A stretch of 23,483 nt of DNA, taken from IMG/VR virus record IMGVR_UViG_3300043409_001574, positions 1 through 23,483 of that record; one strand, written 5' to 3'. The DNA is from a virus. Of this stretch, positions 8,620-9,091 are shown piece after piece (the first letter of the stretch is position 1; each line of letters starts with the position of its first letter). The position numbers were made by a program, and so were the translations under genes. The notes under the pieces were generated by a model that saw nothing but the letters and a program-made list of their open reading frames with translations, did no database searches and was not told where the DNA came from.

Positions 8620-8694
8620 GGATAGTTAGTTTAGTGGTAAAACGAGGCAACATTAATGGGGGTCTTATCAAAGGTTCGAGTCCTTTACTATCCG
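8620..8694 (+). tRNA. tRNA-like gene 1, abnormal anticodon arm
   Basis: The acceptor stem GGATAGT/ACTATCC (8620-8626 with 8687-8693) is perfect. The D arm is GTTT-loop-AAAC (8629-8643). The T arm is AAAGG-TTCGAGT-CCTTT (8670-8686). Between the D and T arms 26 nt are present where a type I tRNA has about 23, and no standard 5-bp anticodon stem with a 7-nt loop fits. The best fold pairs AGGC (8645-8648) with GTCT (8662-8665, one G-U) around a 13-nt region holding the palindrome CATTAATG. I therefore assign no amino acid. The 3' CCA is not encoded (G, then CA). It could be a decayed tRNA, a tRNA with a modified decoding arm, or a tRNA-like RNA with another job. Confidence 0.6.
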
Positions 8695-8719
8695 CAAAAC
8701 ATATTAATTATTGTATTAC

Positions 8720-8781
8720 ACAAAAGAATATCTGTATAAGTCCAAAGGTTGTACGGTTTCGTTTATAACGTATTCTTTTGT
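8720..8781 (+). repeat. 11-bp inverted repeat between the two tRNA-like genes
   Basis: ACAAAAGAATA (8720-8730) pairs perfectly with TATTCTTTTGT (8771-8781), enclosing 40 nt. An inner TATAAG/TTTATA pairing is possible. The enclosed part holds GTCCAAA (8740-8746), identical to the 5' acceptor strand of the tRNA-like gene that starts at 8789. It may be a processing or stabilising structure in the precursor RNA. Confidence 0.55.
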
Positions 8782-8788
8782 TTTATTT

Positions 8789-8877
8789 GTCCAAATAGTT
8801 TAATGGTAAAGCAAAATACAATACCGTAAAAAGTATTGAGGCATATTTAAATAACGGTTCGATTCCGTTTTTGGACT
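8789..8877 (+). tRNA. tRNA-like gene 2, long insertion in the anticodon arm
   Basis: The acceptor stem GTCCAAA/TTTGGAC (8789-8795 with 8870-8876) is perfect. The D arm is GTTT-loop-AAGC (8798-8812, one G-U). The T arm is AACGG-TTCGATT-CCGTT (8853-8869). The anticodon region is far too long. AAATA (8814-8818) pairs with TATTT (8844-8848) where the anticodon stem belongs, leaving 25 nt instead of a 7-nt loop. Inside, CAATAC (8819-8824) pairs with GTATTG (8833-8838), with an 8-nt loop CGTAAAAA and a 5-nt 3' bulge AGGCA. No clear anticodon can be read. The 3' CCA is not encoded. An 18-nt insertion, a degenerate tRNA or a purpose-built tRNA-like RNA are all possible. Confidence 0.6.
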
Positions 8878-8955: not shown

Positions 8956-9028
8956 GGATTCGTAGCTCATTTGGTAGAGCGTTAGACTGAAAATCTAAAG
9001 GTAGTATGTTCGATTCATACCGATTCCA
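8956..9028 (+). tRNA. tRNA-Phe (anticodon GAA)
   Basis: A canonical tRNA. The acceptor is GGATTCG/CGATTCC with one T-T mismatch at the fourth pair (8959/9024). The D stem is GCTC/GAGC. The anticodon stem TTAGA/TCTAA (8982-8986 with 8994-8998) has loop CTGAAAA, giving GAA at 8989-8991. The T arm is GTATG-TTCGATT-CATAC. The variable loop is 5 nt. The 3' end reads A, CA, so CCA must be completed by a host enzyme. It is the last RNA before the terminator at 9056. Confidence 0.93.
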
Positions 9029-9055: not shown

Positions 9056-9091
9056 ATACGGTTATTTAATTTTAGATAGCCGTATTTTTTT
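9056..9091 (+). terminator. Terminator of the tRNA-region transcript
   Basis: ATACGGTTAT (9056-9065) pairs with ATAGCCGTAT (9076-9085), 10 bp with one G-U pair and a 10-nt loop, followed by six more T (9086-9091). It closes the transcript that begins near 8415, giving a precursor of about 680 nt. Confidence 0.88.

Follow-up and report, generated by a model that had tools for sequence, protein, structure and literature searches.

The window, the whole stretch of DNA analysed here, corresponds to one complete IMG/VR record of 23,483 bases. It carries tailed-phage genes encoding a portal, TerL, an E-type major capsid protein, a tape measure protein and a GH108 endolysin. Judged by TerL, its nearest named relatives are Phage vB_RanS_PJN03 (46%), Croceibacter phages (37–39%) and Cellulophaga phages (35%), which makes a host within the Bacteroidota probable.

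We identified three plus-strand genes with the Rfam tRNA model (RF00005) within approximately 1 kb that lacks plausible coding genes. Leftward genes for ParB-like, TerS-like, TerL and portal proteins flank this stretch on one side, and rightward small genes flank it on the other. RF00005 was the only model matched in a cmscan search of the window, which returned no tmRNA model and no Rfam intron. The features of the stretch are as follows:

8620..8694, + strand: tRNA-like gene 1 (RF00005, 48.6 bits; 16/16 scaffold pairs; absent from ARAGORN output)
8715..8786, + strand: A+T-rich long hairpin between the two tRNA-like genes, with T-rich sequence after it (inverted repeat, fold)
8789..8877, + strand: tRNA-like gene 2 (RF00005, 50.2 bits; ARAGORN tRNA-???)
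8814..8848, + strand: anticodon domain of gene 2 (sequence; shuffles; isolated-domain fold z −2.0)
8956..9028, + strand: ordinary tRNA-Phe(GAA) (RF00005, 69.3 bits; ARAGORN)
9056..9085, + strand: terminator-like hairpin of 13 pairs followed by a T run, closing the tRNA stretch (consensus scan, consensus match only)

Gene 2 matches RF00005 over the full model (50.2 bits, E 3.3e-8; gathering score 29). Its acceptor stem (GTCCAAA/TTTGGAC, 7/7 pairs), D stem (GTTT/AAGC, 4/4) and T stem (AACGG/CCGTT, 5/5) are completely paired, and a strict cloverleaf detector set to these pairings found no matches in 60 whole-window shuffles. An earlier note on this DNA had called the three arms essentially perfect and not random, an assessment that our analysis bears out: the covariance model fits a tRNA scaffold and leaves 24 letters of the anticodon loop unaligned. 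ARAGORN likewise finds the gene and does not name its anticodon (tRNA-???, ‘(ta)’). The minimum-free-energy fold of the whole sequence favours other pairings over the cloverleaf, so the cloverleaf assignment rests on the covariance model. Such a fold is not unusual for an unmodified A+T-rich tRNA.

The anticodon stem of gene 2, AAATA (8814–8818)/TATTT (8844–8848), has five of five pairs and encloses a 25-nt loop (CAATACCGTAAAAAGTATTGAGGCA), 18 nt above the usual 7. This loop holds a 6-bp inner hairpin, CAATAC (8819–8824)/GTATTG (8833–8838) with loop CGTAAAAA, and a 3' bulge, AGGCA (8839–8843). The earlier description of this domain, a stem around 25 nt with a 6-bp hairpin and a 5-nt bulge, was correct in every count. 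When the sequence was compared with its dinucleotide shuffles, an outer 5-bp stem in the proper position had p = 0.013. The value for the inner hairpin was p = 0.004, and the domain folded alone forms this hairpin (z −2.0).

Gene 1 was missed in the earlier note, whose picture of a lone feature is thus incomplete, as this neighbour has the same kind of defect. Its anticodon stem is a 4-bp pairing of AGGC (8645–8648) with GTCT (8662–8665) that encloses 13 nt and is not significant alone (p = 0.06, dinucleotide shuffles). Genes 1 and 2 are 93% identical in the D-arm stretch and 82% identical in the T-arm stretch. Their acceptors differ and are both perfectly paired (GGATAGT/ACTATCC in gene 1), which would mean, if the genes are paralogues, that the acceptors diverged with compensation. 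Both genes have the intact acceptor, D and T arms of a decoding tRNA; neither has the 7-nt loop with U33 on a 5-bp stem (25 nt in gene 2, 13 nt in gene 1).

The hairpin between the two genes is built from an inverted repeat (8715–8730/8771–8786) that is 88% complementary (fold z −2.1), and it is possibly a terminator or a processing element. Within its loop (8731–8770) lie GTCCAAA, the very sequence of gene 2's 5' acceptor strand, and ACGGTTTCG, which is similar to the T arm of gene 2. These sequences are perhaps a remnant copy of gene 2 or a pairing partner for it.

The two genes could be decaying phage tRNAs: both would once have been tRNAs, related in their D and T arms, and small insertions would have wrecked the anticodon arms while the scaffold is as yet uneroded. 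Two adjacent copies with different anticodon damage would fit this account, and remnants of tRNA genes often occur around mobile elements (PMC9897764). Two features of the locus point the other way. First, all 16 scaffold pairs are kept in both tRNA-like genes, whereas the adjacent decoding tRNA-Phe(GAA) has one acceptor mismatch. Second, the inserted hairpin of gene 2 is non-random in the shuffles described above. Together with the comparative evidence presented below, these observations lead us to consider decay of the two genes unlikely.

Close homologues of genes 1 and 2 were not found in the viral or phage collections searched with patterns for the window genes, a result that is also compatible with decay. 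In a blastn search of the region against phages, all of the matches listed fall on the normal tRNA-Phe. The relatives of TerL and the major capsid protein (MCP) in viral contigs were limited to L001 and L002 (TerL, 25%) and L003 (MCP, 58%), and none of these three contigs has tRNA genes.

Related phages nevertheless contain elements with similar anatomy. PJN03 shares the ParB-like – small gene – TerL – portal arrangement of the window, and an unannotated non-canonical tRNA-like element lies directly upstream of its ParB genes, at the syntenic spot of the window's two genes. This element has the acceptor GAAGTGG/CCACTTC, the arm TCAAGT-AGCATTCCAA-ACTTGA and a long arm closed by GTGTG/CACAC, and its Rfam score (22.8 bits) is below threshold. 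Croceibacter phage P2559Y encodes a tRNA-like with an expanded anticodon loop in an unannotated gap (26696–26782, 52 bits), and MT835773 is a third related phage with such a gene. No such gene was detected in Nekkels_1, P2559S, phi17:1 or L003, and the four relatives that lack one are a further point in favour of decay.

We identified 24 viral stretches that combine the window's type of D arm (TAGTTTARTGGTARARC) with a long central gap. A few have a merely slightly long arm; several have intact scaffolds and a stem around a loop of 12–21 nt, as in L142 (TGGCG-GTTTCCTTGAAACCTCCTTTA-CGCCA) and L087 (TGCTAG-TTTTTCCTTAAAAATTTTT-CTAGCA). Across a collection of 84,980 species genomes of bacteria and archaea, this pattern has only four matches; one of them, in a Bacteroidales contig, is the element also present in viral contig L137. 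A D-arm pattern with a gap of 28–58 was discarded, as nearly all of its matches are ordinary class II tRNA-Ile(TAT) genes with long variable arms.

A second scan used a Leu-like D arm (GGCGGAATTGGYAGACGC) with a gap longer than in class II tRNAs and left the acceptor outside the pattern. It identified at least 120 viral stretches. Among the matches listed, 116 elements are distinct, of which 101 have a 7/7 acceptor and 113 have U at base 48, as the Leu-type A15–U48 pair requires. When elements with the commonest acceptor (AGTCAGG) are set aside, 58 of the 61 that remain among the matches listed are paired at 7/7, with 46 different acceptors, and the mean number of acceptor pairs across the 61 is 6.8 (3.7 when shuffled). 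The Leu-like pattern also matches 3 of 395 Bacteroidota genomes. A third scan, with the most ordinary D arm (TAGCTCAGTTGGTAGAGC), likewise identified at least 120 stretches; 66 of the 102 distinct stretches among the matches listed have 7/7 acceptors, and the remainder include chance pairings of neighbouring tRNAs. Statistics are given only where the pattern fixes the D arm, since the classifier label ‘other’ includes canonical tRNAs with a mis-parsed D arm. In the submitted loci, Rfam matches such elements as tRNA only.

The elements also occur in arrays, with eight in L262, six in L216 and four each in L244, L245 and L253, and members of an array have like scaffolds and different middles. 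L064 and L137 contain both the Leu-like type and the window's TAGTTTA type in one locus, and L136 combines the TAGTTTA type with an element whose D arm closely resembles the Leu-like one. Leu-like elements lie unannotated in gaps of the Bacteroides phages BS-TP2 and BI-TP1 and the Phocaeicola phage PV4-TP1. The earlier statement that ordinary phage tRNAs do not have this anatomy thus holds for decoding tRNAs only, as genes of this kind are common in phages.

Several further tRNA-like arrangements were observed. Large-phage tRNAs in L038, L045, L096 and L121 carry an insertion of another kind: approximately 45 additional nt follow the D arm and precede what looks like a canonical anticodon arm, and these tRNAs share a small hairpin and a CAGCA-containing motif. 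L145 (Eubacterium sp. MAG) has three tRNA-likes in 0.9 kb with one acceptor (CGGAACG) and differing abnormal anticodon domains. Leu-like elements in L271 and L272 (Bacteroidota genomes G178 and G041) have a GCTTCGA..CGGAGT loop on a very long anticodon stem and are mutually related, with changed stems. Phage tmRNA or permuted tmRNA lies less than 1 kb from non-canonical tRNA-likes in L152 (5468–5866), L149 (8080–8325) and L387 (3492–3715).

Covariation is found within the rebuilt domains. A family of 14 elements with different acceptors and one TCA-GG-AAGG-CC-A motif shows two-sided compensation at 13 of the 22 pairs predicted, and the inner stem within the inserted domain is among the compensated parts. 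L171, L181, L218, L247 and L256 have compensatory changes in the anticodon stem and variable arm. L152 and L254 contain the same inserted domain on unrelated acceptors (AGTCAGG and TACCGGG), and its stems have changed yet remain complementary. The Leu-like elements of L137 and L170 have the anticodon-loop sequence TGAGAGTC..GATGYTAAA in common; their stems (AGGAT/ATCCT and AGTGT/ACACT) differ, and each is complementary. In alignment A2 (L298, L330, L327, L284 and others), TCA-GG-AAGG-CC-A is conserved inside the replaced anticodon domain and GCC is invariant immediately before the T arm; this has the look of a motif bound by protein or RNA. Identical copies were uninformative as evidence of purifying selection: L087/L113/L139 and L137/L146/L270 are identical over kilobases, and L141, at 98.8% identity, is likewise uninformative.

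The elements are likely selected rather than decaying, because change is confined to one domain, acceptors are compensated and inserted domains covary. The earlier argument that maintained arms speak against plain decay has thereby gained comparative support from similar phage genes, namely 46 different fully paired acceptors and the covariation of inserted domains in one family. For the two window copies we infer the same from the wider set: the covariation of an inserted domain was seen in another family, and the window genes themselves have no homologues found.

A translation tRNA with a very small intron or insertion would regain a normal anticodon loop once the extra nucleotides were excised, cleavage followed by RNA ligase repair being one possible route. 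Such a precursor is suggested by some elements elsewhere that have a plausible loop at one end: L171, L181, L218, L247 and L256, in which ATAATA or ACAATA plus CTCAAAA amounts to a Leu-CAA loop with 6 extra nt, and L304, which ends in ATGAAAA. Across 41 expanded arms, U33 occupies position 2 in 17% of the 3' 7-mers and in 29% of the 5' 7-mers, and an internal control gives 27%. With no excess of U33-bearing 7-mers over the control at either end of the loop, a tiny-intron model fails in general, and by inspection of the window no junction leaves 7 nt flush with the stem that restore U33. Known bacterial anticodon-loop introns, moreover, are large and self-splicing. They resemble gene 2 in lying within the anticodon loop and differ in spanning hundreds of bases and carrying a ribozyme; as the earlier note had recognised, the 18 extra nt of gene 2, which match no Rfam intron, are not such a case, and neither a group I nor a group II intron lies in the loop. 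The very small insertion needing removal that had been offered as one option is weakened by these results, and we consider it highly improbable. The tRNA-likes of the window and of the wider set very probably do not decode.

A class of phage tRNA-likes with a rebuilt anticodon domain is thus well supported. Genes 1 and 2 have its anatomy, with intact acceptor, D and T arms and a non-canonical anticodon arm, and on this sequence-level likeness they appear to belong to it. The wider set may itself comprise several unrelated things. The elements are a variant of phage tRNA genes, and there is a real chance that they form a class of phage RNA in their own right. Our search of open-access papers found none that describes them.

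RNase P, RNase Z, the CCA-adding enzyme, EF-Tu and many tRNA-binding enzymes recognise a tRNA through its acceptor stem and D/T elbow. The parts that the elements retain are those used by host tRNA maturation and tRNA-binding proteins, and for this reason we favour tRNA mimicry. A mimic of this kind would keep the acceptor stem and D/T elbow and, with its anticodon domain rebuilt, would present no normal anticodon. The RNA would be processed and 3'-matured like a tRNA and would accumulate during infection, where its scaffold could bind a host tRNA-handling protein and titrate or block it; the altered anticodon domain would make the bound RNA a decoy or inhibitor. Among 127 proteins neighbouring Leu-like elements, no family occurs in more than 4, and the location of the elements beside different genes without a common partner suggests that they act on host factors.

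The most plausible target would be a tRNA-targeting antiphage nuclease or toxin, since published phage tRNAs counter tRNA-cleaving defences (PMC11555353, PMC13096335, PMC10264068). By analogy with these tRNAs, a decoy or inhibitor role against such defences is conceivable, at somewhat less than even odds. We infer transcription, processing, target and anti-defence role, as well as a function common to the window copies and the wider set. Our best single explanation of genes 1 and 2, that they are non-decoding tRNA mimics exemplifying a broad heterogeneous phage set and may act as decoys or inhibitors, is as a whole correspondingly tentative.

The main rival is a tRNA-scaffolded regulatory or processing RNA, followed by decay of the two window copies. 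The tRNA fold would here serve a non-tRNA payload, either as a stable scaffold or as RNase P/Z punctuation, and would have no role against defences; the payload could be antisense, protein-binding or a maturation signal. The scaffold parts kept are indeed those read by RNase P and RNase Z, the middles are hypervariable and structured, and a Bacillus cereus pseudo-tRNA forms part of a regulatory RNA (PMC3399842). This account lacks a known target, however, and punctuation alone would not predict structured, covarying middles; we judge it rather unlikely, if somewhat less so than decay.

Phage tRNAs that escape host defences, or that stand in for the tRNAs those defences cleave (PMC10264068, PMC11555353, PMC13096335), resemble the window genes in having a phage tRNA scaffold with changes concentrated in the anticodon domain and a plausible link with tRNA-targeting defences. 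Those tRNAs decode, and they act through a normal 7-nt loop with base substitutions or through higher dosage; the window genes, in contrast, have a loop of 25 nt (or 13 nt) and no readable anticodon. B. cereus tRNA-Other is likewise a tRNA-like RNA without a translation function that was recruited to another role. It is a single chromosomal gene adjoining a genomic island and is part of a longer regulatory RNA (PMC3399842), whereas the elements described here are phage genes, often in arrays, whose anticodon domain has given way to another structured one.

tmRNA and permuted tmRNA (RF00023, RF04321) share a tRNA-like acceptor/T-arm domain in which the anticodon domain is replaced. They lack a proper D arm and contain a reading frame and pseudoknots over approximately 350 nt, whereas genes 1 and 2 are 75 and 89 nt long, respectively, have a full D arm and match RF00005 only. 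Class II phage tRNA-Ile(TAT) and tRNA-Leu are alike in having a similar D arm and a long D-to-T-arm stretch, and differ in their canonical 5+7+5 anticodon arm, U33 and long variable arm, which the window genes lack.

More broadly, the elements could represent a large unrecognised phage class of modular RNAs, in which a conserved tRNA scaffold is combined with interchangeable structured domains that serve as anti-defence or host-takeover ligands. Such RNAs would be encoded singly or in arrays of up to eight, the scaffold being processed, stabilised and possibly aminoacylated, and the window would carry two of them. We hold this reading, too, at a little under an even chance.

The elements checked in named phages sit in feature-free gaps and ARAGORN skips or mislabels many, which has consequences for annotation. 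Culturable test systems are offered by Croceibacter phage P2559Y on C. atlanticus HTCC2559, Bacteroides phage BS-TP2 and Phocaeicola phage PV4-TP1. The role of phage tRNAs is a long-standing question that is usually framed as codon supply or the replacement of cleaved tRNAs. Common non-decoding phage tRNA-likes would separate tRNA mimicry from translation.
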